A stretch of DNA of 43,017 nucleotides from Thermoanaerobaculaceae bacterium (lineage in GTDB: Bacteria; Acidobacteriota; Thermoanaerobaculia; Thermoanaerobaculales; Thermoanaerobaculaceae). The notes beneath the pieces were generated by a model, which made no database searches, was not told where the DNA came from, and worked only from the letters and a program-made list of their open reading frames with translations. Of the stretch, positions 9,762-41,517 are shown one piece after another. The first letter of the stretch is position 1. Every line of letters begins with the position of its first letter. The stretch is taken from the NCBI GenBank assembly GCA_025456225.1, contig JALOLB010000003.1, forward strand, positions 1 to 43,017, read 5' to 3'. The translations under genes were made by a program, and so were the position numbers.

Positions 9762-12254
9762 TCACTGCACGACGACGCGCACCGGGGCGGAGGTCACCTT
9801 CGAGAACGGGACCCGGGCCTGGAAGGTGTGGGCGCCAGGGGCGAGTGGCCAGCGGGCGGTGTAGGGGTAGTCGGCGAGCTGCCAGGGGAGGCCGTCCACC
9901 AGCCACAGGACCTGCTCGACCCGCGGCTCGACGGTGGCGCGCAGGGCCAGGGTGGCCAGCTCGACGGGGGTCTCGGGGTCGCGCAGCAGCCGCGAGTCGG
10001 TCTGGGGGGCGGTGATGCGGATGCGCAGGGAGGGCGCGGCCGCCACCGCCGACCCCTCGCCCTCCAGGAGCCACAGGCCCGGGAGCGCCGGCGGGCGCGG
10101 CAGCCCGTTGCGGGCCGCCCAGTCGGCGTAGCGGGGCGGGAGCAGGGTGAAGGTGCGAGCGGCCACGACCTCCCGCGGGGTGCGGGTCGAGGCCGGGACG
10201 CCGGTGCGGGTGTCGATCGCCATCTGGAGGTGGGCGTCGCAGGTGCGCCGGGGCGCGTCGGAGGGCTGCACCCACTCGCTCATCACCTTGCCGCAGAGGG
10301 GGGAGGCGAGCCGGCCGGTGAGGGCGCACAGCCGCACCGGCACGAGCCCCTCCGGGGCCGGGAACGAGAGGTCCTCGAAGCCGTCGCGAAGCTCCGGGTG
10401 GAGCGACAGCATGACCCGCTGGGCGAGGGCGGCAGCCTGGGAGAAGCCGGTGGCGCCCTGCATGGGCCGGTGGTCGGGGCGCCCCATCCAGACCCCGATC
10501 AGGTAGCGCCGCGACCACGCCAGCGCCCAGGCGTCGCGCTGCTCGGGGGAGGTGCCGGTCTTGACGGCCACCGGGAACGGGAACTCGCTCGAGCCCATGC
10601 GCGGGAAGCTGGGGAGGCGGGCCATGGGATCCGCGAGCTGCAGGGTGACCAGGCGCGCCGTGGTCTCGGAGACGAGCCGGCGGCCGGTGCCCTCCGGGTC
10701 GCCCTCGAGCCAGGCCAGCTCGGCCAGCCGCCCGTCGGTCGCGAGCACGGTGGTGGCGCGCACGAGCTGCTCGAGGGTCACCGGCATGCCGCCCACCGCC
10801 ATCCCGAGGCCGATGCGCCGGGCCGGGGTGGTGCCGTCGTGGAGGCCGAGGTCCCGCAAGAACGTGTACCCCTCCTCGAGGCCAATCCGCTCGAGCAACC
10901 CCACGGCCGGAACGTTCCGGGAGTTGGCGAGGGCGACGCGGGGCAGCAGCGGCCCGAGGAAGCGGTGGTCGGCGTTGACGATGCCGCCGGGGGCGCGCTG
11001 CAGGTCGTCGACGATCGTGGCCGGCGTGATCGTCCCCAGCTCGTAGCCGAGGGCGTAGAGGAACGGCTTGAGGGTGCTGCCGGGGGAGCGCGGCACGCGG
11101 GTGTAGTCGATGGCGCCCAGGTGCGCGGCGTCGGTCCACCCGGAGGACGCGACCGAGGCCCGCACCTGGCGACCCGGCAGCTCGACGACCATCACCGCCG
11201 CGTTGCCGACCCCCACCCACTCGCCCTGGGCCACCGCCTCGCGCACGAGGGTGGAGACCTGCTCCTGGAGGCCCAGGTCCAGGGTGGTGGCGACGACCGG
11301 GTGCGCGGCGCGCGCGGCCCGGGCGGCTGGGGAGCCGAGCTGGCGCTCGAGCCGCAGGATGGCGTGCATGGCGACGATCGGCCGTACCTCCCTGGTGGGC
11401 ACGCGCAGCGTCCGGATGTCGAGCCGCGCCTGCGCCCACTCCACCTCGCCGATCACGCCCTGCTGGTGGAGCAGCGACAGGATGCGCTCGCCACGCGCCA
11501 CGGCGCGCAGCCGGCCGGAGGGGCGGAACGGGTTCATGGCGGCGGGGGCCTGGGGGATGGCCGAGAGGTAGGCGATCTCCGCCCAGGACAGGTCCTCCAC
11601 CGGCTTGTCGAGGTAGCGGCGGGCCGCGTGGGCGATCCCGTGCACCCGGTTGCCGTAGGGGGCGAGGCGCAGGTAGTGGGCGAGCAGCGCCTGGCGGCCG
11701 TAGCGGGCGGTCAGGAAGAAGGCCGTCACCGCCTCCACCGCCTTGCGCGGCAGCGTTCGGGCACCGGGCCGCTGCATGCGCGCCACCTGCATGGCCAGGG
11801 TGGAGGCGCCGGAGACCCGCTGGCGGCGCGACAGGTTCTGCCAGGCGGCACGGCCCGCGGCCAGGGGGTCCACGCCCGGGTGCAGCCAGAAGCGGCGGTC
11901 CTCGATCGCCACGGTGGCTGCCACGACCCTCGGGGGCAGGGCCTCGAGCGGCCAGTACCCCAGCTCGGCGTCCCGCCCGTCCCCGAGCTCGCACAGGAAC
12001 GCCCCGTGCCGGTCCCGGAGCAGCAGCGTCGGCGCCGGCGCCTCCAGGCGGGCACGGGCAAGGCCGATCCCCACGACTGCAAGGGTGGCCACCGCCACGA
12101 GCACCGCGAGAACCTTGGATACAGTCGAGAGTCTGGTACTGAAAGTCGAGAGTCGAGAGTTGAGAGTCGAGAGCCCTTTACAGAAGGTCGAGAGTCGAGA
12201 GTTGAGAGTCGAGAGTCCTCCCACCCACCCGGCAAAGCGGGTCCTCTTTCCCAT
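9762..12254 (-). CDS. pbpC: Penicillin-binding protein 1C (bifunctional murein synthase)
   Basis: Protein of 830 aa from the ATG at 12254. After one TM helix (VLAVLVAVATLAVVG) comes a GT51 glycosyltransferase domain (EDRRFWLHPGVD near 116, GASTLAMQVAR). A class A transpeptidase domain follows with SxxK (STLK near 393), SxN (SRN) and KTGTS near 563. The C-terminal ~90 residues match the BiPBP_C domain of PbpC proteins. It polymerises lipid II and may cross-link murein on the periplasmic side. The start is uncertain: residues 14-48 are a 7-residue repeat (LSTLNSR, LSTFCKG and so on) encoded by an intergenic heptad array. An in-frame GTG at 12104, just before the TM helix, would give 780 aa, close to the 770 aa of E. 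coli PbpC. It lies directly downstream of the A2M gene, the known yfhM-pbpC partnership. Confidence 0.93.
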   Translation of the reverse strand: MGKRTRFAGWVGGLSTLNSRLSTFCKGLSTLNSRLSTFSTRLSTVSKVLAVLVAVATLAVVGIGLARARLEAPAPTLLLRDRHGAFLCELGDGRDAELGYWPLEALPPRVVAATVAIEDRRFWLHPGVDPLAAGRAAWQNLSRRQRVSGASTLAMQVARMQRPGARTLPRKAVEAVTAFFLTARYGRQALLAHYLRLAPYGNRVHGIAHAARRYLDKPVEDLSWAEIAYLSAIPQAPAAMNPFRPSGRLRAVARGERILSLLHQQGVIGEVEWAQARLDIRTLRVPTREVRPIVAMHAILRLERQLGSPAARAARAAHPVVATTLDLGLQEQVSTLVREAVAQGEWVGVGNAAVMVVELPGRQVRASVASSGWTDAAHLGAIDYTRVPRSPGSTLKPFLYALGYELGTITPATIVDDLQRAPGGIVNADHRFLGPLLPRVALANSRNVPAVGLLERIGLEEGYTFLRDLGLHDGTTPARRIGLGMAVGGMPVTLEQLVRATTVLATDGRLAELAWLEGDPEGTGRRLVSETTARLVTLQLADPMARLPSFPRMGSSEFPFPVAVKTGTSPEQRDAWALAWSRRYLIGVWMGRPDHRPMQGATGFSQAAALAQRVMLSLHPELRDGFEDLSFPAPEGLVPVRLCALTGRLASPLCGKVMSEWVQPSDAPRRTCDAHLQMAIDTRTGVPASTRTPREVVAARTFTLLPPRYADWAARNGLPRPPALPGLWLLEGEGSAVAAAPSLRIRITAPQTDSRLLRDPETPVELATLALRATVEPRVEQVLWLVDGLPWQLADYPYTARWPLAPGAHTFQARVPFSKVTSAPVRVVVQ

Positions 12255-12330
12255 GGGTGGGAGGTGGCACTCTTGACTCTCGACTCTCAACTCTCGACTT
12301 CCCCGTGGCACTCTCGACTCCTTCCCTCGA
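12122..12330. repeat. GAGAGTC heptad repeat island, overlapping the 5' end of pbpC
   Basis: Two plus-orientation arrays (about 12143-12176 and 12187-12220: GTCGAGAGTCGAGAGTTGAG and so on) are followed by a short core and the reverse-oriented array (12268-12302, plus 12309-12319). GTCGAGAGTTGAGAGTCGAG occurs in the first half and its exact 20-nt complement in the second. The core arms CCTCCCACCCA / TGGGTGGGAGG extend the potential hairpin. The island fills the gap between the A2M stop and pbpC and runs into the pbpC reading frame. Confidence 0.9.
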
Positions 12331-12332
12331 AC

Positions 12333-15300
12333 CTACTTCGGAGTCGCAGGCTGGACGACGACCCGCGCGCCGGCGCCCTGGCCCCAGGTGGCGCCGTCGT
12401 ACATCATCTCGGCGCGGGCCGGGGGCTGGACGTACTCGCCGGCGACCGTGGCCCGGGTGCGGAAGTAGAAGTCGTACGTGCCCTTGGGCAGCCAGTCGTA
12501 GTAGAACGCCACGTGGTCGTCCATGAAACCGACGTAGGTCGGTGCGAGCGTCGCGGTACCCTTCGGGCGGGCCTCCGGCGGGGCGGTGGCGAGCCCGGGG
12601 TTGAGCGGCTCGCACCCGGCGGCCAGGGGTGTCACGACTGCCACGTACGCCCGGTCGGAGGGGTTGACCACCTGCACGTGCTCCTCCACCACGTCCCCAA
12701 CCGCCAGCTCGACGGTCGTGCCGGCCGCGGCGAGGGCGATCCGGTCGGGTGGAGCATCCTCCCCGCGCTGGCGCAGCCACTCGCGGCTCACCACGAACCC
12801 GTTCGCCTGGGGCGACACCTGGCTGCCGTCGGCGGCGGGCACCCAGCTCGTCTCGAGCCGCGCCACCACCGGCCGCCCGGCGCCGGGCTGGAGGGTGATC
12901 TCGCCGGCCGCCGGCGTGTTGGTCTTGAAGGTGACAAGGGGTGTCTCGGGTCCCAGATCGAGTGTGCGGTCCCCGCCCAGCCGCAGGCGGACCTGGCGCC
13001 TGCCGGCCCCGGCGAACGGCGGCTTCACGAGCTCGGAGAGCGCCAGCAGCGCCGCCGCGTTGGCGTTGGTGGACCCCCAGCCGTCGTCGCGGCCGAGGGT
13101 GACGAGGCCGTCCACGAGGACCTGGAGCCGCGGGCTTGACGCATCGCTCTGGATCACCGCCCGGGTGACCTCGGCGACGGTGCGGGTCTCGGAGGGCAGG
13201 ATGCGGGCGCTACGCGCCGTGGTCCGCCCCTGCAGCCCGCCGTAGATCTCCTTCCCCTGGTGGAGCCGCGTCACGATCCCGTCCCACATGCGCGTGGTGA
13301 GCGCCCGGGCGGCCGGGGAGTCGGCCTCCCCGGAGCGGGCGTAGGCGTGCAGCACCTCCGCCGTGCCCTCGAGGTCGAGGTACTCCGCCTTGCGCGCCAG
13401 CTCCGCCGCGTAGGCGGGCTGGGCCTTGCCGGCCTGCACGAGGGCGATGAGCGCCCAGGAGCGCTCGGCGAACGACTCCCCGTCGATGAACCGCGAGTAG
13501 TCGGAGCGCAGCGCCTGCTCGAGGGTGCGGGTGAGGCGGTCCATGAGCTTCGGATCGACGGGGTAGCCCGCCTCCTTCGCCTCGACGAGGAGCTGCACGG
13601 TCCAGGCGGTGAGGGAGACGTATCCGGGTCCACCCGGCCAGTACGCCACCAGCCCCTGGCCGTCCACGGCCTTGCCGATCCAGTCGAGGGTGTCCGCCAC
13701 CGCTCGCTGCAGTGCCTCCTCCCCGCCCTCCTGCGCGAGCAGCCCGCGCAGGCGCGCCATCGCCACCTGGGCGCGGGTGCGGGAGATGCGCTGCTCGGTG
13801 CAGCCGTACGGGTAGTCGAGCAGGAACGAGAGCCCGGCCGCCATGCGCACCAGGCCGGCCTGCTCGGAGAGCACGAGGGTGCGCCGCACCGTGCCGGGCC
13901 GCGGCGGGTCGGGGACGGCGGACACGGCGAGCGGCTTCCCGGACTCCAGCTCCTGCATCTGCCGCACCACCATGCGCGCCCGGTCGGGCTGGATCGGCAG
14001 CCTGACCTCGAAGGCATCGCGAGCCCCGTCGGCGGTGCGCGCCACCGCCACCCGGAACGTCACGTCCTTGCGGGACAGCGTGCCTTCGGCATCCACCCCC
14101 GGGGTCGTGACGGTGACCGGGAAGTCGATGCGCAGGGGCTGGTTGGGCACCCAGGCCAGGTCGCGGCTGGCGCCCCCGTCCAGGGTGACGCCCTCCACCT
14201 GCCACTCGGCCTTCCCGGGTCCGCCCTCACCCTCGACGACGCGGCCGATCGCCGCGGCGGTGAACCGGTCCCCCGGCCGCACGAAGCGCGGCAGCGCCGG
14301 CTGCACGATGACCGGGAGGCGGACGGCGATCTGGGAGACGCCGACCCCGAAGCGGTCGGGGCCGGACGCGGCCTTCGCCCGCAGCTTGAACACCGTGAGG
14401 TTGTCCGGCAGCTCGACGGTGACGGTGGCGACACCATCGGGCCCCACCTGGATCGCCGGGTTGTAGAACGGCACGCTCTTGAAGTTGCGGCGCACCGTGG
14501 TGCGCTCGAGCAGCCCGCCCTCCTCGCCCTCGTCGCCCCCCGGCAGCTCGGCGAACGCCAGCTCACCGAATGCCAGGTTGCGGGTGTCCCGCACCGTCAG
14601 GCGCGAGCGCACCGGGTCGATGAAGTCGGGGAGCGGGTCGAGTCGCTGCTCCCGCCCCAGGGCCAGCACCGCGGCGTCCACGAGCCACAGGGTCACCTCG
14701 CCGGGCAGCGGGCGGCCCTTGGGATCGGAGAGCCTGATGGTGACCTCGACCTCGCTGCCGGGCAGCGCCCGCTCGGGGTGCACGAGCGTCACCTCGACGC
14801 GGTTCGAGACCGCGCTGACCTGGAGCCACGTGGTGGCGGCCATGGTGGTGGGCTTGCCGAGGTCGGCGGTGGAGCCGGCGGCCGGCGCCGAGCCGGCGAC
14901 CCGGCCGCGCATGAGCACGGCGTGCACCGGCAAACGTGGCACGAAGGACGGCAGCACCGGCACCTCGACCGTGGCGGCGCCGCCCGAGACCTCCACCCAC
15001 CGGTACTGGTTGCCCTCCGGGGCCTCGACCACGAGCAGCGCGCGCGCCGCCTGGAACGGGCTCTGCAGCACCAGCTTCGCCGTGTCTCCGGGGTCGTAGG
15101 CCGGCTTGTCGGAGGACATCGTGAAGACCGGCGTGGCGGGCTTCGGCCAGCTCTGGGGCTCGGGGCCCCCGGCATAGAGGTCCACCGAGACGGTCTGGGA
15201 GCGCCCCAGCCGGTCGGCGGCCTCGAGCTCGACGATGTAGACGCCGGCGGTGGGGATGGCGAGCGGCACGGTGACGGCCGCGGCGCCGCTCGTGACCGTG

Positions 15301-18269
15301 GTCTCGGAGAGCTGCTCGTCCACGACATCGGTGAGGTAGCGGGCCTGCCCCTGGGCGAAGTCCGAGGCCTGCAGCACGGAGTGCCACTGGCGGTGCTTCA
15401 GCCGCACCGTCACCGGCAGCCCGGCGAGCGGCGTGTCATCCACCCCCAGCACCAGCACCTGGGGCTCGATGGTCGTGGCGTTGGCCAGGAAGCGTGGCGC
15501 CAGCAGGCCGAGCACGAAGGGCGGCACCGCCACGACCTGCTGCACGGCGGTGACCGTCTGGTCGTCGGCGCCGGTGACGGTGGCCTCGACGAGATAGGTG
15601 CGCGGCTGGGCCGTGGCCTCGGCGCCGGGGTTGAGGGTGAGCGAGGCGCCGCCCTCGGCGTCGGTGACGTCCTCCTGCTCGAGGCGCGGCGAGCCCTCGA
15701 ACCTCCGCGCACCGGCGAAGCGCGCGTCGGAGGAGAACAGGAACCCCTCCTGGCCCTTGGGCTGCCAGGCGTAGGGGAACTGGGTGACCCGCCAGCGCAC
15801 CGGCCGGCCGGCCACCCGGCCACCGGCGTAGTAGGTGGCGGTGAGGCCCACCTTGAGCTCGCCGTCCAGGGGCGCCCGGTCGGGGGCCGTGAGGTGGATC
15901 TCGAACTCCGGCAGGCGGTAGGCCTCCATGCGGAAGGCGACCTCGGCGATCCGCTCCTGGGTGGGCAGCTCGAGGGCGGCCGTGAACGTCCCGGTCGGCA
16001 GGTCGTCGGCCGAGAACGCCTGGTAGAACCCGCCGCTCGGCGACAGCTCGACGGGGAAGCGCCAGACGATGTCGCCCGGCCCTTCCACGAGCAGGGTGCC
16101 GCTACCCTTCAGGGGCGTGAGCTGCCCGTGGAAGCGCTGGCGCACCCACCCCTTGATGTGCACCGTCTCCTCGGGGCGGTAGACCGGGCGCTCGGTGAAG
16201 ATGTGGCACAGCCGGCGGGGGATCTCGGGTCGCCCGGCCAGACTCTCGTGCGTCCACTGCAGCCAGGTCTGGCGGGTAGGCTGCCAGCGGTTGTCGGCGA
16301 AGCCGTCGGGAGCGCGGTCCGGGTCCAGCACCAGCGAGTCGCCGTCCTTCTCGACCACCAGGCGGCGCACCTCCACGGAGCGGGTCGGCCGGAAGCCGGG
16401 GACGGCCCATCGCAGTGTGCCGTCGGCTCCGGTCGTGCCCTCGAAGAGCGTCTCCCAGGTCGTCTGGCCGGTCGACACGGAGCCCTCGACCCGTACCCGC
16501 GCGCCCGGCACCGGCTGGCCGCTCGACAGCGCCGTCACGGCGAACACCACCGCCCCGGGCTCCTCCAGGGTGGCGAGCGCCAGGTCGGTGACCTGCAGGC
16601 GCATCCAGGCGCGCTCGTTGCCGGTTCCCAGTCGGCGGATGCCCACCAGGTAAGTCCCGGGCCGGGACTTGCCGCCGGCCTTCGCCAGATGGGCCGCCAG
16701 GTCGAGGCCGAACGTCGCGGCCCCGCCCTCGGTGCGCAGGGGCAGATCGATCAGGGTCGAGACCTGGGGGGAGCCGAGGGCCGACAGGTGCTGGCGGAGC
16801 TGCCACTCGTCGATGCTGCGGTCCGCTGCCGTGTGGGGTGCCGGCTCCTCGCCGGGTCCAGGCGGGCGCTGGCTCTCGTCGGTGCGCACCGCCGAGGTCG
16901 GGAACGGCCAGAACGTGCGATCGAGTGGGTCGACGCGGTGGATGCGCAGGTCCACGCGCTCGTCGCCGCGTCCCTGCAGCGGGGCCATCTGCGGCCCGTA
17001 ACGTTCGACGATGCCGGAGGTGGCGCCCCACTGCAGGAACGCCGCCTTGCGGGGGAACGCCAGGAAGACCTCGGACTCCCCCTGGAGGTCGAGGCCGCGC
17101 CCGTGGGTGTCGGACAGCGACGTGGGCACCACGGCGACGCGGTAGAGGGTCTCCCGGGCGAACGAGCCGCTCACCGTGAGGCTCGTGCCGCTCACCGCGA
17201 AGGTCAGGTTGTCAACGGCCGGCGAGAGGCGCACCAGGTTGCGGGCCTCCACCGGCCCGAGCGCCTGGGGCGGCGACGAGAACCGCAGCACGAGCCGCGG
17301 CGAGTCGGCCTCGCACTGCAGCGCCTGCTCGCGGGAGTATCGGGACCCGGCCGGCGTCAGGGGGACCTGGGCCGCGCCGCACCCCATCGTCAGCACGCGG
17401 AACGGCTCGGCGGTGGAAAAGCTCACTCGCGCGAACGAGCGATCGGCCGAGTCGTCCAGGCTGAGGCGCAGGTGGACGATCGCCCGCGTGCCCAGGGCGA
17501 CCGGCTGGCGGAGCTGCACGACATAGGTCGCGGCATCCGCGCGGTTACTCCGCTCGGGGACCTTGATCGTGAGGTCCTCGCCCTCGAGGAAGCGGCCTCC
17601 GCCCGGCTCCACCCCGGGAAGGGGCCGCAGCTCGATGCGCACCATGCGTGCCAGGGCAGCCTCGTCGAGGGGCTCCGGGAAGGTGAGCGTGATGCCGTCC
17701 ACGGGCTCGAGCCCCTCCGCCCCGTTGGCGGGCAGACTGGAGGTGGGGGCGGACATCAACGTCATGAGGGGCTGGCGCGTGCCCCCCACCGTCACGACAA
17801 ACTGCCCGAGGGGAGGCCAGGGCTCGGCCGGCCTGAACTGCAGGGTGCGCGCGTCGAGCCACGTCCACGCCCCGGGGTGGTTCGGCTCCATTCGCACGAC
17901 GCGATCGGGCCGGTCCTCGGGCCCGCCGGTGGCCGGTCCGGCGTCGGCGGCGAAGAACACCGTGACCGGATCCCACCGGCGCAGGAAGTGGTCGGGCACC
18001 ACGACCGTGCCGGAGACCCCCGCCGGACGCGCCAGGGCCGGGGTCGGAGCCGGCTGGGTCTGAGCCGATGCCTGCCCCATGCCCGCCACCACCGTCGCCA
18101 CCACCAGCCAGGTCAAGGTCAACAGTACTCCAGGTCGGCCCGCTGGAAGGCTGGCTGCGACCGGGCGGGTGGGGGATGTGAGGGTGGGTTCGCCGGGTGG
18201 AGTGAGGGGGCAACCGTGAACTGACAACTGGGTGGTGGTTGGGGGCACACTGCTCTGCCGGCGTGACAT
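12333..18269 (-). CDS. Bacterial alpha-2-macroglobulin with thioester motif (YfhM-like)
   Basis: Protein of 1978 aa, somewhat longer than the ~1650 aa of E. coli YfhM. A hydrophobic export segment (VLLTLTWLVVATVVAGMG) lies about 50 residues from the predicted start. Beta-sandwich macroglobulin domains include the MG2 motif ERPVYRPEETVHIKGW near 693. The A2M core (RRNFKSVPFYNP, ELPDNLTVFKLRAKA) is followed by an intact thioester CTEQ with Cys at 1490 in PYGCTEQRIS, then the helical thioester domain. These periplasmic proteins trap attacking proteases by forming a covalent thioester link and are thought to protect the cell when the envelope is breached. ATG 18269 is chosen for the AAGGTG 8 nt upstream; GTG 18278, ATG 18275 and a TTG just before the export segment are alternatives. 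It starts about 6 bp after the giant gene stops and precedes pbpC. Confidence 0.93.
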   Translation of the reverse strand: MSRRQSSVPPTTTQLSVHGCPLTPPGEPTLTSPTRPVAASLPAGRPGVLLTLTWLVVATVVAGMGQASAQTQPAPTPALARPAGVSGTVVVPDHFLRRWDPVTVFFAADAGPATGGPEDRPDRVVRMEPNHPGAWTWLDARTLQFRPAEPWPPLGQFVVTVGGTRQPLMTLMSAPTSSLPANGAEGLEPVDGITLTFPEPLDEAALARMVRIELRPLPGVEPGGGRFLEGEDLTIKVPERSNRADAATYVVQLRQPVALGTRAIVHLRLSLDDSADRSFARVSFSTAEPFRVLTMGCGAAQVPLTPAGSRYSREQALQCEADSPRLVLRFSSPPQALGPVEARNLVRLSPAVDNLTFAVSGTSLTVSGSFARETLYRVAVVPTSLSDTHGRGLDLQGESEVFLAFPRKAAFLQWGATSGIVERYGPQMAPLQGRGDERVDLRIHRVDPLDRTFWPFPTSAVRTDESQRPPGPGEEPAPHTAADRSIDEWQLRQHLSALGSPQVSTLIDLPLRTEGGAATFGLDLAAHLAKAGGKSRPGTYLVGIRRLGTGNERAWMRLQVTDLALATLEEPGAVVFAVTALSSGQPVPGARVRVEGSVSTGQTTWETLFEGTTGADGTLRWAVPGFRPTRSVEVRRLVVEKDGDSLVLDPDRAPDGFADNRWQPTRQTWLQWTHESLAGRPEIPRRLCHIFTERPVYRPEETVHIKGWVRQRFHGQLTPLKGSGTLLVEGPGDIVWRFPVELSPSGGFYQAFSADDLPTGTFTAALELPTQERIAEVAFRMEAYRLPEFEIHLTAPDRAPLDGELKVGLTATYYAGGRVAGRPVRWRVTQFPYAWQPKGQEGFLFSSDARFAGARRFEGSPRLEQEDVTDAEGGASLTLNPGAEATAQPRTYLVEATVTGADDQTVTAVQQVVAVPPFVLGLLAPRFLANATTIEPQVLVLGVDDTPLAGLPVTVRLKHRQWHSVLQASDFAQGQARYLTDVVDEQLSETTVTSGAAAVTVPLAIPTAGVYIVELEAADRLGRSQTVSVDLYAGGPEPQSWPKPATPVFTMSSDKPAYDPGDTAKLVLQSPFQAARALLVVEAPEGNQYRWVEVSGGAATVEVPVLPSFVPRLPVHAVLMRGRVAGSAPAAGSTADLGKPTTMAATTWLQVSAVSNRVEVTLVHPERALPGSEVEVTIRLSDPKGRPLPGEVTLWLVDAAVLALGREQRLDPLPDFIDPVRSRLTVRDTRNLAFGELAFAELPGGDEGEEGGLLERTTVRRNFKSVPFYNPAIQVGPDGVATVTVELPDNLTVFKLRAKAASGPDRFGVGVSQIAVRLPVIVQPALPRFVRPGDRFTAAAIGRVVEGEGGPGKAEWQVEGVTLDGGASRDLAWVPNQPLRIDFPVTVTTPGVDAEGTLSRKDVTFRVAVARTADGARDAFEVRLPIQPDRARMVVRQMQELESGKPLAVSAVPDPPRPGTVRRTLVLSEQAGLVRMAAGLSFLLDYPYGCTEQRISRTRAQVAMARLRGLLAQEGGEEALQRAVADTLDWIGKAVDGQGLVAYWPGGPGYVSLTAWTVQLLVEAKEAGYPVDPKLMDRLTRTLEQALRSDYSRFIDGESFAERSWALIALVQAGKAQPAYAAELARKAEYLDLEGTAEVLHAYARSGEADSPAARALTTRMWDGIVTRLHQGKEIYGGLQGRTTARSARILPSETRTVAEVTRAVIQSDASSPRLQVLVDGLVTLGRDDGWGSTNANAAALLALSELVKPPFAGAGRRQVRLRLGGDRTLDLGPETPLVTFKTNTPAAGEITLQPGAGRPVVARLETSWVPAADGSQVSPQANGFVVSREWLRQRGEDAPPDRIALAAAGTTVELAVGDVVEEHVQVVNPSDRAYVAVVTPLAAGCEPLNPGLATAPPEARPKGTATLAPTYVGFMDDHVAFYYDWLPKGTYDFYFRTRATVAGEYVQPPARAEMMYDGATWGQGAGARVVVQPATPK
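18209..18232. repeat. Possible decayed heptad array in the A2M N-terminal coding region
   Basis: On the minus strand the bases read CAGTTGTCAGTTCACGGTTG, which divides into AGTTGTC, AGTTCAC, GGTTGCC with 7-nt spacing. It lies between the A2M start codon and its export segment, the same place where the array sits in pbpC. It is short and imperfect, so the link to the other islands is tentative. Confidence 0.3.
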
Positions 18270-18274
18270 GGTCA

Positions 18275-21200
18275 TCACCTTCCCTCACCCTCGGACGGCT
18301 CCTCGCCGCCCTCGGGCTCCTCCGACTCCTCGTCGAACGTCTCCTCGTCCTCACCTTCGGTCTCGGGCGCCACCGACGGCGTCTCCTCCTCGGGCTCGCC
18401 GCGGGCGGCCCGCAGGTAGTGCCGGACGACCTCCTCGGGCGGCCCGCTCGACGGGGGCACCAATCCCACCACTGCCGGGCGCGCTCGCAGCGCCCCGCCG
18501 CCGGCGGGGGCGTGGAGGACCACGACGTAGGCGCCCGGCCCAAGCCGCGGCATCATCGCCGTGCCGGTGCCGAGCGGCGTGCCGGCGGCATCCAGGAGCG
18601 TGGCCTCGACCACGTCCTTCTCGGCCCGCACCCCGACGCCCACCGGCCCGGCCGTGGTGACGGTGAAGCCGAACCCGCGGGACTGGCCGGGGGCCAGCAG
18701 CACTTCGGGACCCAGCCCCTCGCCCACCGCCACGAGGGGGCTTGCCGTGACCTCCAGCTCGCCGATGAGGACCGAGCTGTCAAGAGGCCGCAGGCGGACC
18801 TCCACGAGCTCCGGTCCGGCCAGGACGTCGAGGTCGAGGGCCTGGGGATGCAGCGCGATCCGGGTGCCGCTCGTCGTGGTCACCCGGGAGACCACCGGCG
18901 TGGCCGAGCGCAGGTGCACAAGGCCGCGGAGGCCGGGGTCGACCTCCAGGGCCGTCTCCGCGCCCTCGAGAGTCACCACGGCCGGTATCTGGACCGGCAA
19001 GGTGGGCGGGCCGCTCGGGCCGCCCCAGAGGACGGACGCATCCCCGGTGTCCGGCTCGAGCCAGGCCATGACCCGGCCCGGGCCATGGGGGATCAGGAGG
19101 GTGCCTCCGGCGCCCGCCGGGAGGCCGTCGCCGCGATGGACCCGACCATCGGCACCGACCAGGACCGCAGCCCCGTTCACCCCCCGCACCCGGACGCGGC
19201 GCTGATCCGAGGGCGGCACGGCGACGCGCAGCGTCCCCGCGGCGGGCTGGACGAGGATGAGGGGCCTGGCGGGATCGAGCCGGGCCGGGCTTCCGTCCAG
19301 CAGGGCGGTCGCCGAGAACGCCCCCGGCTCGGGACCCACTCTCGCGAGCAGGAGTCGACCGCCGACCGAGAGCGCCATCTCGCTGATCGACTCCCGGCCC
19401 CAGTGCACGCCCGTGACCTGGCCATCGCGCACCGTCAACCCGACGACACCGGGCGCCAGTGCCACCAGGAGCCTGCCCTCCCGGGCCGGCAGGTCGTAGG
19501 CCAGCACCTGCCCCGGCCCGACCTCTCCGGTCGTCAGTCCGATGAGGGGCGTGGCCGGTGGCACGCTGAGCCGGATCACCCGCACGCGGACGTCCAGCGG
19601 GCGTTCCCCGCCCTCGCCATCCCAGACCTCCAGGACCTGGGGCGGCTCGCCGACGGCGGCGGTGGCGGCAGCCTGGGCGGCGACGGCGACGACCCGGTCG
19701 ACCGCACCCTCCCCGGTGCTGCCCTGCAGCAGGCGCGCCACCGGCTGGCCGGCCGACGAGACGACGTGCGCAAGCCAGAGGCCGGCGGTCCCTTTACCGA
19801 GGTCGACCCGCAGCCGCTCTCCGGCCGGTGCGGTGAGGGGCAGCTCCCGGCCATCCGCAGCCAGCGCGAGACGCTCCCCGCGGACCCGGGCGCCGGCCTG
19901 ACCGAGCACCCAGAGTCGGTCGCCGGTCACCACGGCCAGACCCCGCTCGGCGGGCTCGGCGGCGCCTCCGGCAGCACCGCTCCACACCAATCCGCCCTCG
20001 GCCTCGAGGCGCAGCACCCCCGGCCGTCGCACGGTCACAGCGAGCGCGCCGACGGAGGGGTCGCTCCCGGGCACGGCTGCCATCGCGGCGCCGCCGGAGA
20101 GCTTGCTCTCGTCAACCTTGGCCGGGACCACGGCGGCGGCGCGCACGGTCACCGGCAGCCCCCGCTGGTCCGCCGACCACACGCGCAGGCGCAGCCTGGC
20201 GTTCGCGGGGATCGGCATGCCGAGCCGGACGTCCCGTCCCACCTGGCGGGCGAGGGGTTTCCAGGTTCCCTTCAGCTCCTGCTCCACCCCGACGCCGACC
20301 GCCTCGCCGCTGCGCAGGGTGACGACCAGCAGCTCGGCGCCCGGCGGCAGCGTCAGGGGCACCAGATGGGCGGTGTCGCCGGTCGTGATCTCCCGGCTGC
20401 CGGGCAGCGTCCACGCCGCCTCCTCGACCTCGGAGCGCGTCGTCATGCGGACGAGGGACGTCCCGCCGCTGATCCCGACCGGGTCCACGTGCAGGTCGTA
20501 CCGGCCCGGGGTGAGCTGGGTGGCGATGTGGAAGTTCCAGTCGTCGGAGCGGTCGTCGCTCCTGGCCAGGCTCCGCCCGTCGGCAGCGCCAAGCTCGGCG
20601 CGCACGTCGGTGCCGCCGAACGACGAGAGCTCGACCATGCCCGCTGCCCCCACCGAGACCTTCAGGATGCCTGGGATACGGATGCTCCGCGTCTGACCCG
20701 GCAGCAGCTCGAGGGGATGCACCATGACCGTGTACGGGACCCGGTTGTTGGGTCGTCCAGACGTCACCCGCAGCTCATAGCGACCGGCCGGCAGCCCCGT
20801 GAGCAGCCCCTTGCCGGGCTTCGTGCGGTCGAGCACCTCATCCTCTCCGGCACGGACCAGCTCCCCCGTCATCTCTCCGGAGAGCGTCACCCCAACGGTC
20901 GCCATCGCCGGCAGCTCGAAGCGCCAGATGTCGGGGAGCCGCTGGGCATCGCCTTCCGGCTCCAGCCAGAGGTGCTCCACCTCGCGGTCGAGGGGCAGGT
21001 GATGAGGGCCGTGCCCCGCGAAGCGAAGCGGCGGCACGATGGGCTCCAGCACGGTCAGACGGCGGCTTGGAACCGGGCCCGGAAGCAGCACCAGCCGGTA
21101 GCCGCCGGCGTCGAACGCCCGCGCGAGCTCCGCGGTGCCACCCGGAGCCACGAGTGGCCACGCCTCCGCGTCCTCGAGCCGGCACGTCGAGGGCTGGCGC

Positions 21201-23551
21201 AGGCCGAAGCTGCGCAGGGTGTAGTCGGCCCGCTCGGGGATCCCGAAGGTGTAGAGCACCCCCTCGCCCTCCCCCAGGGTGACCCGGGCGGGGAGGCCGG
21301 GCAGCAGCACGCCACCCTCGCGCAGGGTCGTCGGGACGAGACGGACCCCGAGGTGCCCCGCGGACCGACCCTCGGCGCGCACCGTGAGCTGGTAGTCACC
21401 CTCCCGCAGGTACTGCTGGATGAGGAAGTTCCGGCCGACACCGTTGGACTCCTGGGCGTCCAGGGAGGTGATGACCCGGGAGCGCAGGGTGCCCGCGGTC
21501 TCGAGCAGGCCGGAGGTCTCCAGGCGATACAGCCCCGGGGCGTCGACCTTCACCAGGAAGGTGCGGCTGCCGCGGCGCTCGAGGTCGAAGAGCTGAGGTG
21601 TGTCGGCCTGCAGCACCGGGTACTGCGGGAGCCCCGCCAGCACGGCGTCCGGGATCGGGGGAAGAGGCGTGGACGCCTGCAACCGCTCGGGCTCCAGCGC
21701 CAGCGCGCCGACCACGGTGGCGGTGCCGGGGTTCCGCACTGCCACGGTGTGCGCCCCAGCGGCGGCCGCGGCGGTGCTCGTCCAGCCGGCACCGTCCAGG
21801 CGCAACTCCAGCCGGCTGCCGTCCTCGGCCACGGCCCCCAGGGTGCCTGCCTCGGGGACCTCGAAGGGCACCTCCAGCTCCTCGCCGGGCTTGAGGACGA
21901 GGGGCAGGGCCTCCCGGAGGTCCAGGGGCAGGTGGCGCAGCACGAGGCCGGCGCTCACGCCCGGTTGTCGGTTGAGGAAGACCGTGTACTGGCTACCGTT
22001 ATCCAGGGCGAGCTTCGGGAGCTGCGCCGCGCCCTGCACAGCCCGCAGCGCATCCTGGGGGTGGTCGAGGAGGGCGAGGTTGAGCGCCATCGCCCCGACG
22101 TCGCGCACCACGAAGTCGAGGATCCCCTGCTTCTCGGGGCGGGCCGTGAGGACGTACAGGCCGGCGTCCAGGTTCCAGGTGGTGCCGGAGGGCTTGAACG
22201 GAGGCGGCTCGTAGCGGGCGGGCCGGGTGGTGAGGAACGGCTCGAAGCGGAAGCGGGCGTCGGCGCCGCGGGAGAGGATCTCGTAGGCGCCGGTGTCTGT
22301 GACGCGCACGAACACGGTCAGCTCCTCCAGGAGGTTGCAGCGGCGCAGGAGCCCGTGGCCCGGGCCGAGAGGGACGGCCCGGTCGGCGAAGGCCTCGCGG
22401 TCCGGTGGCTGGCCGAGGCGCTGGCGCTGCACGATCGCCGTGGCATCCACCGAGTCCTGGGGGGTGCCGCCGTGCACCGAGGACAGCCAGTGGTCGCCGC
22501 TCTCCCGGAAGGAGTACTCCCAGCGCTTCACGAAGTGCTGCAGGACATAGGGTTGACCCGCTTCCCCACGCACCGTGACGAGGTGATGGCCGTCAGTGGT
22601 CGCGACACGCAGCTCGGCCACCGGCGGGACCGTCTTCTTGTCGATGGCGGCCACGGCGCTGGCCGACCCATAGGGCGTCTCGTCCGAGTAGTCGGTCACC
22701 CCCAGCTCGGCAGTGCGGGCCTCGGGCAGCTCGATCCGGAAGAAGGTTGCCGTGCCCGGCACCAGGAAGCGGTCGATCCCGAACGGGCCCACCTCGTAGC
22801 GCCGGCGCAGCGCCTCCGGCAGCGACGGCACGCCCCAGCGCAGGTGGAACGGCCGGGCCTCGCCGCCCGCCGCCCAGGGTTGCCCGGGGCCGCCGTAGGC
22901 GGTGAGCAGGTAGAGCCCGGGCTCCAGCCGCGTGACCAGCCGGCAGGCCAGCAACGGCTGCCCCTTGCGCGGCTCGACGACCTCCCGGTCGGGCTCGGAC
23001 GCCTCCAGCCAGACCCCGTCCCGCCACAGGCGCAGGTCGGCGAGGTGCCGGCCGGCCGCCTCGAACGCCACGTGGCGCGCCGCCTCGATCGACACCCACC
23101 AGGAGCGCTGCTCGATGTCACCCAGCTCGGCCGAGACGAGCTTGTGCTCGACGAGCAGAGACGCCTGGGGTGTGTGCAGCTCGGTGAACGGGCGCACCGA
23201 GAGGGTGGCCTCGCCGCTCGCCGACGGGTGGCCCTCCACCAGCAGCTTGACCTGCCCCCGGTCCAGGAAGACGTCCAGGCGGCCGTCCGCCTCCCCGGGG
23301 GTGCCGCGCGCCGCCCCCGGCCCGGCCATGCGATCGACGAGCTGTAGGGCGACCCCCTGCTTGCTCGTCGCAGCGATGGCGTAGCGGCCGAACGCGAAGG
23401 TCGACGCGATGGCGCTGTGCCGGCCCGCGGCCGGCACCCGGTCCGGCTGGACGGTGGGGGCTGGCGGGGGCTCGGTGGCGGCCACGGGCAGGGCGGCGCT
23501 CACCAGCAGGGTGGCGAGCAGACCGGTGTGGAGTCGTGATCTGGCTGGCAT
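18275..23551 (-). CDS. Giant exported beta-rich protein of unknown function, upstream of A2M
   Basis: Protein of 1758 aa from ATG 23551 (GAGGTGAG upstream); the ORF track start lies 93 codons further up and is not supported. A clear signal peptide (MPARSRLHTGLLATLLVSAALPVAA) sends it to the periplasm or beyond. No catalytic domain is recognised. At least eight segments share an '[APE]GxYxL' turn-strand pattern (AGLYVLTARP, PGLYRLETSG, EGDYQLTVRA, AGGYRLVLLP, AGRYELRVTS, PGRYDLHVDP, PGAYVVVLHA), as in PPC-like beta-sandwich repeats, so it is probably a string of such domains. The last ~40 residues are strongly acidic (EEETPSVAPETEGEDEETFDEE). It ends about 6 bp before the A2M start, which points to translational coupling and a shared role with A2M and PbpC. 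A TAGAGT box (23621-23616) is a candidate -10. Confidence 0.85.
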   Translation of the reverse strand: MPARSRLHTGLLATLLVSAALPVAATEPPPAPTVQPDRVPAAGRHSAIASTFAFGRYAIAATSKQGVALQLVDRMAGPGAARGTPGEADGRLDVFLDRGQVKLLVEGHPSASGEATLSVRPFTELHTPQASLLVEHKLVSAELGDIEQRSWWVSIEAARHVAFEAAGRHLADLRLWRDGVWLEASEPDREVVEPRKGQPLLACRLVTRLEPGLYLLTAYGGPGQPWAAGGEARPFHLRWGVPSLPEALRRRYEVGPFGIDRFLVPGTATFFRIELPEARTAELGVTDYSDETPYGSASAVAAIDKKTVPPVAELRVATTDGHHLVTVRGEAGQPYVLQHFVKRWEYSFRESGDHWLSSVHGGTPQDSVDATAIVQRQRLGQPPDREAFADRAVPLGPGHGLLRRCNLLEELTVFVRVTDTGAYEILSRGADARFRFEPFLTTRPARYEPPPFKPSGTTWNLDAGLYVLTARPEKQGILDFVVRDVGAMALNLALLDHPQDALRAVQGAAQLPKLALDNGSQYTVFLNRQPGVSAGLVLRHLPLDLREALPLVLKPGEELEVPFEVPEAGTLGAVAEDGSRLELRLDGAGWTSTAAAAAGAHTVAVRNPGTATVVGALALEPERLQASTPLPPIPDAVLAGLPQYPVLQADTPQLFDLERRGSRTFLVKVDAPGLYRLETSGLLETAGTLRSRVITSLDAQESNGVGRNFLIQQYLREGDYQLTVRAEGRSAGHLGVRLVPTTLREGGVLLPGLPARVTLGEGEGVLYTFGIPERADYTLRSFGLRQPSTCRLEDAEAWPLVAPGGTAELARAFDAGGYRLVLLPGPVPSRRLTVLEPIVPPLRFAGHGPHHLPLDREVEHLWLEPEGDAQRLPDIWRFELPAMATVGVTLSGEMTGELVRAGEDEVLDRTKPGKGLLTGLPAGRYELRVTSGRPNNRVPYTVMVHPLELLPGQTRSIRIPGILKVSVGAAGMVELSSFGGTDVRAELGAADGRSLARSDDRSDDWNFHIATQLTPGRYDLHVDPVGISGGTSLVRMTTRSEVEEAAWTLPGSREITTGDTAHLVPLTLPPGAELLVVTLRSGEAVGVGVEQELKGTWKPLARQVGRDVRLGMPIPANARLRLRVWSADQRGLPVTVRAAAVVPAKVDESKLSGGAAMAAVPGSDPSVGALAVTVRRPGVLRLEAEGGLVWSGAAGGAAEPAERGLAVVTGDRLWVLGQAGARVRGERLALAADGRELPLTAPAGERLRVDLGKGTAGLWLAHVVSSAGQPVARLLQGSTGEGAVDRVVAVAAQAAATAAVGEPPQVLEVWDGEGGERPLDVRVRVIRLSVPPATPLIGLTTGEVGPGQVLAYDLPAREGRLLVALAPGVVGLTVRDGQVTGVHWGRESISEMALSVGGRLLLARVGPEPGAFSATALLDGSPARLDPARPLILVQPAAGTLRVAVPPSDQRRVRVRGVNGAAVLVGADGRVHRGDGLPAGAGGTLLIPHGPGRVMAWLEPDTGDASVLWGGPSGPPTLPVQIPAVVTLEGAETALEVDPGLRGLVHLRSATPVVSRVTTTSGTRIALHPQALDLDVLAGPELVEVRLRPLDSSVLIGELEVTASPLVAVGEGLGPEVLLAPGQSRGFGFTVTTAGPVGVGVRAEKDVVEATLLDAAGTPLGTGTAMMPRLGPGAYVVVLHAPAGGGALRARPAVVGLVPPSSGPPEEVVRHYLRAARGEPEEETPSVAPETEGEDEETFDEESEEPEGGEEPSEGEGR

Positions 23552-23757: not shown

Positions 23758-24567
23758 TCAGGCGAGCAGCTCGGGGGCGATATCGAGGTCGGCGACCCAC
23801 TCGGCGGGCCCCGCCAGGCGCACCGGGCACGACGGGGCCATCCCGTCAGGGGTCACCAGCAGCTCCCGGCCGGACGCGGTGATGACGCGGATTGGCGGGT
23901 CGAGCCACCCCTCGGCGACCGCCACGAGGGCGGATGCCACGTCACCCGAGCCGCACGAGAGGGTCTCGCCCTCCACTCCGCGCTCGAACGACCTGGCGTG
24001 CAGGGCGCCCTCGCCGACCCGCACGAAAGTGACGTTGGCGCCGCCGGGAGGCAGGTCGGGGTGGGCGCGCAGCGCCGGGGCGAGGGGGCCGAGAGACCTG
24101 TCCCCGAAGTCGGGCCACCGCACGGGGACCACCAGATGGGGCACGCCCACGACCAGGTAGCGTGCCCGGACCTTCTCGCCGGCCGCGAGCAGCTCCTGCC
24201 AGGGATGCACCGCGGCGGGGGCGGGCAGCGCGAGCTCGACCTCGCGGGCGTCCACCCGGGCCGGGACGGTGCCGAAGCCGGTGTGGAGCCGCATATCGGC
24301 CCATCCCCAGCGCAACGAGGCGAAGCGTGCCGCACACCTGGTGCCGTTGGCGCAGAACGTGGCGAGGGAGCCGTCGCTGTTCCAGTAGGCGACCCGGGCC
24401 TCGTGGTCGCCACAGGGCGTGACGAGGAGCACGCCGTCGGCCCCCACGCCCAGGCGCCGGTGACACAGGCGGGCGACCAGCCCCGGCAGGCGCTCCTCCG
24501 GGGGCTCGAGGGAGCCGTCGAGGAGGAGGAAGTCGTTGCCGGCGCCGTGCAGCTTGGAGGCCCTCAC
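23758..24567 (-). CDS. dapF: Diaminopimelate epimerase
   Basis: Protein of 269 aa, the usual length. It converts LL- to meso-diaminopimelate for lysine and murein synthesis in the cytoplasm. The N-terminal HGAGNDF motif, the first catalytic Cys in FCANGTRC and the second in ETLSCGSGD are all present, as required for the two-thiol mechanism. The GTG start overlaps the upstream lipoprotein stop by 4 bp (GTGA), so translation is coupled. The ~200 bp between its stop and the giant exported-protein gene contains only a candidate -10 box. Confidence 0.96.
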   Translation of the reverse strand: MRASKLHGAGNDFLLLDGSLEPPEERLPGLVARLCHRRLGVGADGVLLVTPCGDHEARVAYWNSDGSLATFCANGTRCAARFASLRWGWADMRLHTGFGTVPARVDAREVELALPAPAAVHPWQELLAAGEKVRARYLVVGVPHLVVPVRWPDFGDRSLGPLAPALRAHPDLPPGGANVTFVRVGEGALHARSFERGVEGETLSCGSGDVASALVAVAEGWLDPPIRVITASGRELLVTPDGMAPSCPVRLAGPAEWVADLDIAPELLA

Positions 24568-25592
24568 CGGGCGCCCCGCACGGTGCAGTACACGGGGTCC
24601 GACTCGTTGCCGACGGCGTCCACGACCTTCACCGCGTACTCGGCCTCGCCGGCCGGGGGTTTCTCGTCGGTGTACTGGGGCTCCCGACCGTCGTCGATGA
24701 GGTGGACCCAGAGGGTGCCCTGCTTGCGGAAGACCCGGTACAGCGCCTTCGGCTCGGGGCTGGGGTCCCAGCGGAGCTGCGCGATATCGCCCTCGGGCAG
24801 GCAGATGAGGTTCTGCACGGGCGGTGGAGGGTAGATGTCCGGGTAGGCCAGACGGACCTCGGGGCCCGGTGGCCCCCACACCCGGTCGACGACGGCCCGG
24901 ACACGGTACACCCAGGTGGCGTTGAGCCTGGCGGTCGTGTCGAGGAAGGCTCCGGAGGCGAGCCCCTCGGCTGCAACCTCCCAGGCCTGGGTGGCCGCCT
25001 CCCGGCGCTCGACCAGGTAACCCGCACCCTCGCTTGTCTGCCACGTCAGGGCGATACCGGTCGGGCCTGCCGTGGCCTGGGCACCCTGCACGGCCGCTGG
25101 CACCGCCTTGACCTGCCAGGAGGCGATGTTCGAGAGCGCCGAGGGCGTGCCGTCCCGGCGGCGCGAGCGCACGGCGTACCAGAACGTCGGCTGGGACTGA
25201 CCGGCCTGGACCTGGGGGAGTGGATCGCGCAGCTCGAGCCGGGAGCCGCGCGTTGCGGCCTCCAGCATCGGGCCCTCCAGGCGCTCGATGAGCCGGCCGC
25301 GGCCGAGCATGAGCTGCCGCCGCAGCTCGACCCCGGAGGCACCGGTCCCCACCTGCTCCTGGCCCGGGGGTACGTCCAGCTTCCAGACCTCCACCCGTCC
25401 CAGGTCCACGAGCTGCCGGCCGGCCCGGGTCAGTTGCGGGTACGACCAGGCGAGGACCGCCTCGGCTCCCTCCTGGTGGACGGTGAGATCGGTCGTGGTC
25501 TCGGGCACCTCGATGATGGGAGGCAGGGGATCGCCCTTCCGGCCGCACCCGCCCAGGCCGAGCAAGGCGATCAAGATGGCGGCAAGGAGCAA
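24564..25592 (-). CDS. Fibronectin type III lipoprotein with LptM-like N-terminus
   Basis: About 342 aa from a TTG at 25592. The start is unsure because the upstream coding space is made of repeats; TTG 25661 is the next in-frame option. The hydrophobic stretch ALLLAAILIALLGLGG ends in the lipobox LGGC, so the mature protein is a lipoprotein starting CGRKGDPLPP. That resembles the CGxKGPLxxPP start of LptM (YifL), which in E. coli is also encoded just before dapF. Behind it are about three fibronectin type III-like domains (TTTDLTVHQ...AVLAWSYP; GIALTWQTSEGAGYLVERR; AQLRWDPSPEPKALYRVFRK). Fn3 modules bind protein or polysaccharide; the exact role is unknown. It overlaps dapF by 4 bp. Confidence 0.8.
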   Translation of the reverse strand: MLLAAILIALLGLGGCGRKGDPLPPIIEVPETTTDLTVHQEGAEAVLAWSYPQLTRAGRQLVDLGRVEVWKLDVPPGQEQVGTGASGVELRRQLMLGRGRLIERLEGPMLEAATRGSRLELRDPLPQVQAGQSQPTFWYAVRSRRRDGTPSALSNIASWQVKAVPAAVQGAQATAGPTGIALTWQTSEGAGYLVERREAATQAWEVAAEGLASGAFLDTTARLNATWVYRVRAVVDRVWGPPGPEVRLAYPDIYPPPPVQNLICLPEGDIAQLRWDPSPEPKALYRVFRKQGTLWVHLIDDGREPQYTDEKPPAGEAEYAVKVVDAVGNESDPVYCTVRGAR

Positions 25593-25595
25593 GGC

Positions 25596-25922
25596 TTGGG
25601 GTCCGGGGTCCGGGGTCCGGGGTCCGGCCTCCCCCCCTCCCGGTCGAGAGTCGAGAGTCAAGAGTCCAGAGCCCTCCCGCCCCCGGGATCCGACCGCCCG
25701 CCCTCCGCGTCGAGAGTCGAGAGTCGAGAGTTGAGAGTTCCCCCGCCCTGGTAGGTCCAGCCGTCCCGGCCCTTCGCATCGGGCTGGTTCCGGAGGAATG
25801 CTGGTGTGGCGGAGCAGTTTCGGAACACTCGGCAGGCAGGGCTTGCATTGGTGCATGGCTTTCGACCTTTGGTTCCCGGCTTTCACCTTTCGACTCTCAA
25901 CTCTCGACTCTCGACTGACTTC
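25596..25922. repeat. Repeat island with GGGGTCC and GAGAGTC heptad arrays
   Basis: This ~330-bp stretch between hslU and the Fn3 lipoprotein contains four exact tandem GGGGTCC heptads (25598-25625). Two GAGAGTC-type arrays follow (about 25643-25672, preceded by CCTCCCGG, and 25708-25741). A reverse-oriented array (25888-25919, ACTCTCAACTCTCGACTCTC) ends almost at the hslU stop. The ~145 bp between the arms holds no gene I recognise. The arms could form a long hairpin and may attenuate transcription out of hslVU. Confidence 0.85.
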
Positions 25923-28759: not shown

Positions 28760-28998
28760 CCAACTCCGGTCGAGAGTCAAGAGTCAAGAGTCGAAAGCCG
28801 AGAGTCGAGAGTCGAGAGTTCCCCCACCCCCCCGGGAGAGGTGACCTTGCGGGTCCCCTCCTCGGGGCGGGAAATCGAGGTTCTCCACGTTCAGGTGTCA
28901 TCACGAGTCCAACCTCGCGACCACACAAGGCGGTCGGGCCTTCCTGGTTCAGGGGTGGGGAGGGACTCTCGACTCTTGACTCTCGACTTTGAACCGGG
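28760..28998. repeat. GAGAGTC heptad repeat island between convergent genes
   Basis: Arm one (28768-28819) contains GGTCGAGAGTCAAGAGTCAAGAGTCG and, after a gap, GAGAGTCGAGAGTCGAGAGTT followed by CCCCCACCC. Arm two (28965-28992) is the reverse complement (GGGACTCTCGACTCTTGACT and so on) and is bounded by GGGTGGGGAGGG and GGGAGGGTGGGG. The core of ~145 bp holds no recognisable gene. It lies between the EamA gene and the kinase gene, which converge on it. Confidence 0.88.
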
Positions 28999-34514: not shown

Positions 34515-35231
34515 TCAGAAGCTCCACACCAGCGACGCGGTGGTGGTCGTGTCGGTGCTGGTGTAGCCAATCGGTGGCACGTTGTCGTAGCGCAGGATGT
34601 AGGCGAGCTTGAGGGCGAAACGCCTGGAGAGCACTGCCTGCGCCGCGGTCTCCGAGGACAGTCGCCAGTCGTCTGTCTCGTCGAAGCTCGGGTAGAACAT
34701 CAGGCGCTCGGTGATCTTGGCGCCCTCGCTGAGGACATACGCGTAGGTGACGCCGGCCAGTGCGCCGGCGTAGTCCCGGTTCTCCGCGTCGGTCAGCTCC
34801 TCCCTGGTGTACGTGGCGCCGATGTCGAAGGAGAGCACGTGCTCGGGACCGGTCAACGCCTTGAAGGTGGCCCCCGCCTCGGCGACGGCTCGCAGGTCGA
34901 GGCCGGCGAAGTCATCCTGCTCGACCGTGACCCCGCCGAACACGTCCCAGCTTCCACTCAGGGCCATCTGGACTCTGGCCCGGCCGAAGGCGCGGTCGGC
35001 GGTCTTGACGCCGTCCTGCTCGGCGCGGAACGCCAGGGCGCTGATCTCCAGCCCCCACGGCTCCGGCTTGCGCTTGACGGTCGCCTCGATCCCCAGGGAG
35101 CCGGTGTCGGAGTTGCCGCTCGTGGCGATGTACGACAGCCCGAGCGACCCGCTCCACGGCCCGGTCGGCTCCTCGGCGCTTGCGGTGACGGCCACAAGCA
35201 ACGCCACCATCATCCATCTCGTCGTTCGCAT
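34515..35231 (-). CDS. DUF481 family outer-membrane-type protein (YdiY-like)
   Basis: Protein of 238 aa with a signal peptide (MRTTRWMMVALLVAVTASA). The mature part alternates polar and hydrophobic residues as amphipathic beta strands and ends in SLVWSF, the terminal Phe typical of beta-barrel proteins. GSLGLSYIATSGNSDTGSLG is the DUF481 signature near the N-terminus. The family is described as salt-induced outer membrane proteins; function is unknown. The start is fixed by AGGAGGAG just upstream. TACAAT (35265-35260) is a possible -10. It is divergent from the L,D-transpeptidase gene. Confidence 0.88.
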   Translation of the reverse strand: MRTTRWMMVALLVAVTASAEEPTGPWSGSLGLSYIATSGNSDTGSLGIEATVKRKPEPWGLEISALAFRAEQDGVKTADRAFGRARVQMALSGSWDVFGGVTVEQDDFAGLDLRAVAEAGATFKALTGPEHVLSFDIGATYTREELTDAENRDYAGALAGVTYAYVLSEGAKITERLMFYPSFDETDDWRLSSETAAQAVLSRRFALKLAYILRYDNVPPIGYTSTDTTTTASLVWSF

Positions 35232-35384
35232 CGCTCCTCCTCCTATCGTGGTAGGGAACATTGTACTGGAGCTTCCATCGGAGCGGCTGCCGTGCCACGG
35301 CCAGCCCCGGGCCGACCGCTTCCATCCGGGCGGCCGGAGGCTCTTGCTATGCTTCGCCGCGCGGCCGTCGCCGCCGGGGGAGAC

Positions 35385-41323: not shown

Positions 41324-41421
41324 CGCCAGGCAGACGTGCGGGCCGTCAGGGTTGCCGGTGAGCTGTGCGCAGTGCGCAGCGCTGTGACGTTCCTCCCGAC
41401 CGCCGTTCTCCTCCCACCCCT

Positions 41422-41457
41422 CCGAGCACCGATCACCGACCACTGACCACCGGGAGG
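41422..41457. repeat. Heptad repeat, GTGGTCA family
   Basis: On the minus strand: CCTCCCGG followed by heptads GTGGTCA, GTGGTCG, GTGATCG, GTGCTCG. It carries the same flank and the same heptad family as the island at 9003. It lies in the 194-bp gap between the second membrane subunit and the multiheme cytochrome gene, just before that gene's promoter. Confidence 0.75.
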
Positions 41458-41466
41458 CTGGAGGTG

Positions 41467-41495: not shown

Positions 41496-41517
41496 TGTTC
41501 GAAAGGGGGATCCCACC

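Follow-up and report, generated by a model that had tools for sequence, protein, structure and literature searches.

The stretch of DNA analysed here (the window; 43,017 nucleotides from a Thermoanaerobaculaceae bacterium) carries three adjacent genes on its minus strand, between positions 9762 and 23551, which encode an exported giant protein, an alpha-2-macroglobulin (A2M) and a PBP1c-like transglycosylase/transpeptidase (PbpC). The initial annotation had placed a 1758-aa exported protein, a thioester A2M and PbpC side by side at this site, and the open reading frames, domains and motifs confirm that description. The giant gene is closely preceded on its own strand by dapF (diaminopimelate epimerase; 23758-25848), and the window also encodes a DUF481 protein (34515-36080, minus strand) and a cytochrome c7/MtrC-like protein (41365-42873, plus strand).

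The giant gene (18275..23551, minus strand) opens with an ATG at 23551 and closes with a stop at 18275, giving 1758 codons; its assignment to an undescribed family is based on the reading frame and its start, database nulls, homologues and a 60-sequence alignment. A Sec signal peptide lacking a lipobox is predicted by eye at about residues 1-25 (23477..23551, minus strand), and the N-termini of homologues are likewise signal-peptide-like. Searches of Pfam and NCBIfam returned no domain match for the window giant, and the PDB yielded no sequence relative even with profiles of 56 to 60 members, which agrees with the earlier claim that the protein has no known domain. A weak match to PDB entry 4pw2 (E 0.1-0.3) was treated as chance. 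Searches of the open literature found no description of a third, giant gene alongside A2M and PbpC. The A2M-PbpC concept is already known, and the new part is the giant family, which adds proteins of ~1,700-1,860 residues that are undescribed in the libraries searched.

The A2M gene (12333..18278, minus strand), identified by Pfam and placed by tree in a giant-linked clade, encodes an exported protein with MG2, A2M_BRD, A2M and bMG10 domains. It has no lipobox, and the lipobox pattern found no match among the 46 A2Ms of that clade. Its two candidate starts, a GTG at 18278 and an ATG at 18275, lie in the junction GGTGATGACCATG (GTGATG), where the GTG would overlap the giant frame by 4 nt and the ATG by 1 nt, the two frames sharing TGATG. 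Because both starts overlap the giant stop, the gap of about 6 bp previously given for this junction is not right. The N-terminal region of A2M (residues 82-560; 16599..18035, minus strand), which includes VVPDHFLRRWDPVTVFF, is highly conserved within the clade and served as a diagnostic query, and the CTEQ thioester motif (13791..13802, minus strand) is intact, with GCTEQ at ORF residue 1493. PbpC (9762..12311, minus strand) was identified from Pfam and NCBIfam models and its catalytic motifs: it has Transgly, Transpeptidase and BiPBP_C domains, its best NCBIfam model is PBP_1c at 446 bits, under the cut-off of 494, and the motifs EDRRF, STLK, SRN and KTGT are all intact.

Heptad repeats of the form (AGTCGAG)n, in inverted pairs ~60-150 bp apart, occur in the window at 12144-12299, 25642-25916 and 28768-28988. 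A search with a 21-base version gave 379 matches in the window genome and 0 with a reversed control; two relatives had 21 and 27, and the others almost none. The repeat resembles a dispersed hairpin element that has expanded recently. The copy located between A2M and PbpC is read through at the annotated PbpC 5' end; the true start of PbpC is uncertain because that end lies inside the repeat element.

The fold of the giant was addressed with two overlapping AlphaFold2 models, of residues 27-1040 and 640-1745, with the window sequence and homologue alignments as input. The models reached pLDDT values of 93.6 and 90.1 and pTM values of 0.85 and 0.75, respectively, and contain beta strands nearly throughout, except at the C-terminus, where a helix is followed by an acidic tail modelled with low confidence. 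The helix (residues ~1706-1716; 18404..18436, minus strand), identified from model and consensus, bears a GPPxxVxRxYL-like motif that is visible at the C-termini of most homologues. The tail (residues 1717-1758; 18278..18403, minus strand) has a pLDDT below 50 at the modelled C-terminus and is the least conserved part of the protein in the 60-sequence alignment. Alignment of the giant with its own profile (self-HHalign) detected repeats at E ~5e-20, with offsets fitted by a unit of ~125 residues, which leads to an estimate of roughly 13-14 domains between residues 27 and 1710 (18422..23473, minus strand). The motif [AP]GxYxL occurs six times, compared with 0.08 expected and a maximum of 2 in 1000 shuffles, and its recurrence is therefore not due to chance.

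Foldseek matched the modelled giant to neuropilin/cubilin CUB domains, the ColG collagen-binding domain, SID1 ectodomains and A2M/complement chains, which were the top PDB matches, with TM-scores that were low across the whole chain. The tandem collagen-binding domain of ColG (5iku), for example, matched with E 3e-8 and a target-normalised TM-score of no more than 0.34. The A2M/C3/C5 matches (TM 0.05-0.08) were rejected as homology and ascribed to generic similarity of tandem beta-sandwiches. No PPC domain (PF04151) reached the curated Pfam cut-off in the window giant; among the sub-threshold Pfam matches of homologues, PPC was the most common (5/12), with a best E of 0.005. The earlier proposal that the repeats resemble PPC is tentatively supported, and the repeats themselves are real by the self-profile alignment. 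The giant is, as predicted by these models, an elongated chain of repeated PPC/CUB-like beta-sandwiches. No enzyme fold was recognised in the AlphaFold2 models, and of the outcomes that the initial annotation had set against its proposal, an unrelated enzyme or an adhesin, neither is recognisable in the predicted fold.

Homologues of the giant are widespread. Full-length or contig-split copies, at 33-49% identity, were present in 11 of 100 relatives, in all 11 of which A2M lies directly downstream. Scanning 84,980 species genomes with two peptide patterns, a method that undercounts, gave 65 loci with full-length or partial homologues in about ten phyla, including Acidobacteriota, Pseudomonadota (alpha, beta and gamma), Myxococcota, Nitrospirota, Thermodesulfobacteriota, Elusimicrobiota, Spirochaetota, Schekmaniibacteriota and CSSED10-310. 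One record, 'Mycobacterium sp. KBS0706' (L071), is probably misnamed or contaminated, as its operon hardly differs from the one in Inquilinus limosus (A2M branch 0.02).

The gene order is conserved across these loci. A2M adjoins the giant downstream on the same strand in 51/53 readable loci, and PbpC comes next in 37/43, being missing beside A2M in the other 6. An overlap of the giant frame with the A2M frame is seen as ATGA in 19/51 loci and as GTGA or TGATG in a further 8. The two loci in which A2M does not adjoin the giant (L062 and L065) were rejected as counter-examples, since the cognate A2M is present elsewhere in each genome. At L062 (genome G100) a full-length giant is followed ~3 kb downstream, on the same contig, by a further stretch that resembles part of the giant (residues 1120-1718, E 1e-8). 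Outside the trio the neighbourhood is not conserved, and no fourth conserved neighbour was found across the giant loci; hence the unit consists of three genes. The giant had been expected to neighbour A2M and pbpC, and it does so; far from occurring mostly without A2M, no homologue was found to lack its cognate A2M in the loci and genomes that could be read.

Co-occurrence extends this relationship from neighbourhoods to genomes. Searches of 396 Acidobacteriota genomes for the giant and for the N-terminal region of its cognate A2M, each at E<1e-50, gave an identical set of 20 genomes from 12 families, and neither was found alone; weaker matches, two for the giant and eight for A2M, were short or poor. 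In a sample of the Inquilinus order, 4 genomes had both and 13 had neither. Among the 100 relatives, close A2Ms (47-65% identity) were confined to giant-bearing genomes, other A2Ms having at most 30% identity over long matches, and close PbpC copies also tracked the giant, at a distance of 9 kb in one case and ~94 kb in another. Pairwise identities across 34 loci were correlated for giant and A2M (r = 0.956), giant and PbpC (0.86) and A2M and PbpC (0.88), with 0/2000 Mantel permutations as high; such correlations reflect shared ancestry and are not by themselves proof of contact or of a physical complex. The giant diverges faster than its partners, with a mean identity of 33% versus 47-48% for A2M and PbpC.

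The three genes are also shared, at 63-85% identity, by genomes (MAGs) of Elusimicrobia, Nitrospiria and Desulfuromonadales, which suggests that the whole operon may have been transferred between phyla or that MAG contigs were misbinned. Co-occurrence by chance or by ancestry alone was rejected on the strength of the two samples and this cross-phylum sharing. In Rhizobium, dN/dS ratios of 0.16 for the giant and 0.13 for both A2M and PbpC show, at the sequence level, that all three genes are under purifying selection. The giant is, by co-inheritance, an obligate partner of one A2M clade, and gene order and co-occurrence sustain the earlier view of giant, A2M and PbpC as one system by marking them as a conserved unit.

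This A2M clade is distinct from the classical one. The 46 giant-linked A2Ms formed a single clade relative to 14 others with an SH-aLRT value of 100, in a tree whose depth is limited by few classical rows and long branches, and the window A2M fell outside the classical A2Ms. The window genome has four A2M genes, on contigs C331, C375, C350 and C53 (L095-L097); the divergent A2Ms on C350 and C53 have no PbpC match nearby. The pair on C375 (L096) is a classical A2M-PbpC pair without a giant. The presence of this giant-free pair elsewhere in the same genome implies that the giant operon is a parallel system rather than the known pair with a gene added, and the window A2M is not, as the initial annotation had it, a member of the well-known pair. 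The idea that the giant belongs to every A2M-pbpC locus was likewise rejected, given its absence from the classical loci of ten relatives, from C375 and from E. coli.

Two features vary within the family. The thioester is kept in 36/46 aligned giant-linked A2Ms across many phyla, the cysteine being gone in 10/46, and was lost at least twice on the A2M tree with the giant retained; two Rhizobium plasmid A2Ms have STEQ in place of the thioester cysteine motif. Degenerate thioesters were noted at L050, L052, L053, L063, L073, L075, L077, L083, L085, L086, L109 and L110. Covalent trapping thus cannot be the function common to all members. Thioester loss does not exclude trapping, since MagD, a type II A2M, traps protease though it is thioester-less (PMC5764988).

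The second variable feature is an N-terminal LprI domain (PF07007), which scores above the Pfam threshold in the giants of Rhizobium CIAT894, an Acetobacteraceae MAG and Roseococcus, three in all, and is absent from the window giant, by Pfam, and from most others. All seven giant homologues on Rhizobium plasmids align across the LprI region; in Rhizobium acidisoli WP_245293026 (L110 10416-11001) the annotated start omits an in-frame upstream LprI domain and signal peptide. The LprI-fused giants of Rhizobium and Roseococcus are partly among the degenerate-thioester loci; L081 is not. The name LprI comes from lysozyme inhibition. The Salmonella LprI protein ScwA does not contribute to resistance against lysozyme and acts on the control of wall hydrolases instead (PMC7933661), and in either case, whether LprI acts on lysozyme or on wall hydrolases, the giant is linked to the cell wall.

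Together these data point to an undescribed three-part envelope shield, comprising the giant, A2M and usually PbpC, that is spread over many bacterial phyla. The three genes probably form an envelope-defence operon, with the giant serving A2M in the periplasm as a rigid scaffold and recognition subunit. The data show gene order, export signals, fold class, repeats, co-occurrence, co-inheritance and purifying selection, and from there the complex, its location and its activities are inferred: the giant would bind the non-lipidated A2M, stabilise it and position it at the peptidoglycan beside membrane-anchored PbpC. On entry of foreign proteases and wall hydrolases into the periplasm, A2M would trap the protease, via its thioester where present, the giant itself or, in some alphaproteobacteria, its LprI domain would engage the wall hydrolases, and PbpC would restore the peptidoglycan. 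A precedent is MagD, whose stability depends on operon partners (PMC5764988). Counting against this scaffold reading are the loss of the thioester in part of the clade, the 6 readable loci that have no PbpC beside A2M, and the fact that LprI domains are not always lysozyme-directed, as ScwA illustrates (PMC7933661). A bolder version, less likely than not, makes the giant array of recognition domains an obligate co-receptor, which would sense or capture both proteases and wall hydrolases and pass them to A2M while PbpC repairs the wall; were it true, the three proteins would be a modular, immune-like complex of the periplasm, transferred between phyla as one unit and working with or without a thioester.

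The main rival is a recognition or decoy role, in which the giant itself is the trap, bait or decoy: its beta-sandwiches would bind, or be cut by, proteases or lysozyme-like enzymes, and A2M would act on the captured enzymes, making the giant a recognition arm and not a passive scaffold. PPC/CUB-like domains are common recognition domains and recognition proteins are often fast-diverging, and the Foldseek matches to such domains, the LprI fusion in some giants and the lower mean identity of the giant (33%, as against 47-48% for A2M and PbpC) are all in keeping with this role. We nevertheless consider it rather unlikely, as no bait-like or protease-inhibitor motif was recognised in the giant, most giants have no LprI domain, and model confidence is high throughout, the tail being the sole long low-confidence stretch.

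Retention of the giant-A2M pairing through at least two losses of the thioester, the intact catalytic motifs of PbpC and the long domain array modelled at high confidence would also suit an envelope-building or stabilising machine, with the giant as a periplasm-spanning rod, A2M as a structural or maturation factor and PbpC as a local synthase. This seems improbable: 36/46 A2Ms from many phyla retain the thioester, MagD traps protease without one (PMC5764988), and a patchy distribution (20/396 genomes) is ill-suited to a core building function and makes such a role less likely. Most improbable of all is a secreted adhesin, or a surface or matrix protein, with no link to A2M and PbpC beyond the common operon, because the giant's co-occurrence with one A2M clade is exclusive across phyla, no anchor, autotransporter or sorting signal was noticed in giant sequences, and no adhesin family matched the giant (Pfam and NCBIfam; homologues by Pfam). 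Large all-beta repeat proteins are often adhesins, and the Foldseek matches to receptor and collagen-binding domains are what that explanation has in its favour.

Bacterial alpha-2-macroglobulins are relatives of complement C3, and their positioning and targets are largely open. A giant partner that is present in about ten phyla, and fused to LprI in places, provides a handle on the complex, location and phenotypes of A2M, and the predictions made from the scaffold reading are testable in culturable environmental bacteria such as Rhizobium.

Comparison with known systems places the giant operon beside them. In its components, the giant may resemble PPC/clostridial collagen-binding folds, by the sub-threshold Pfam matches in 5/12 members and the Foldseek match to 5iku, and differs in having ~13-14 domains per chain and no attached peptidase; its likeness to the LprI family lies in the N-terminal fusions of Rhizobium plasmids, the Acetobacteraceae MAG and Roseococcus. 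Type I A2M-PbpC systems consist of a thioester A2M followed by pbpC, with protease trapping and wall repair proposed as their function (PMC3328433). E. coli YfhM/ECAM-PBP1c has this order and, like the window, encodes MG, bait and A2M domains; unlike the window A2M, the E. coli protein is a lipoprotein without a giant neighbour. Classical A2Ms in general are at most 30% identical to the window A2M, match essentially its C-terminal two thirds and lie outside its clade. The mag operon of Pseudomonas aeruginosa (MagA-F) shares with the giant operon an A2M with dedicated operon partners, which in the case of MagD bind it and are needed for its stability (PMC5764988), and some members of the giant-linked clade are, like type II A2Ms, without a thioester. 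In contrast, the mag operon comprises six genes with partners of 26-60 kDa, no giant and no PBP1c, whereas the window has a unit of three genes, encoding PbpC, an A2M with a thioester, and a giant. The giant operon is most likely a third operon class of bacterial A2M system, the other two being the classical A2M-PbpC pair and the mag operon.
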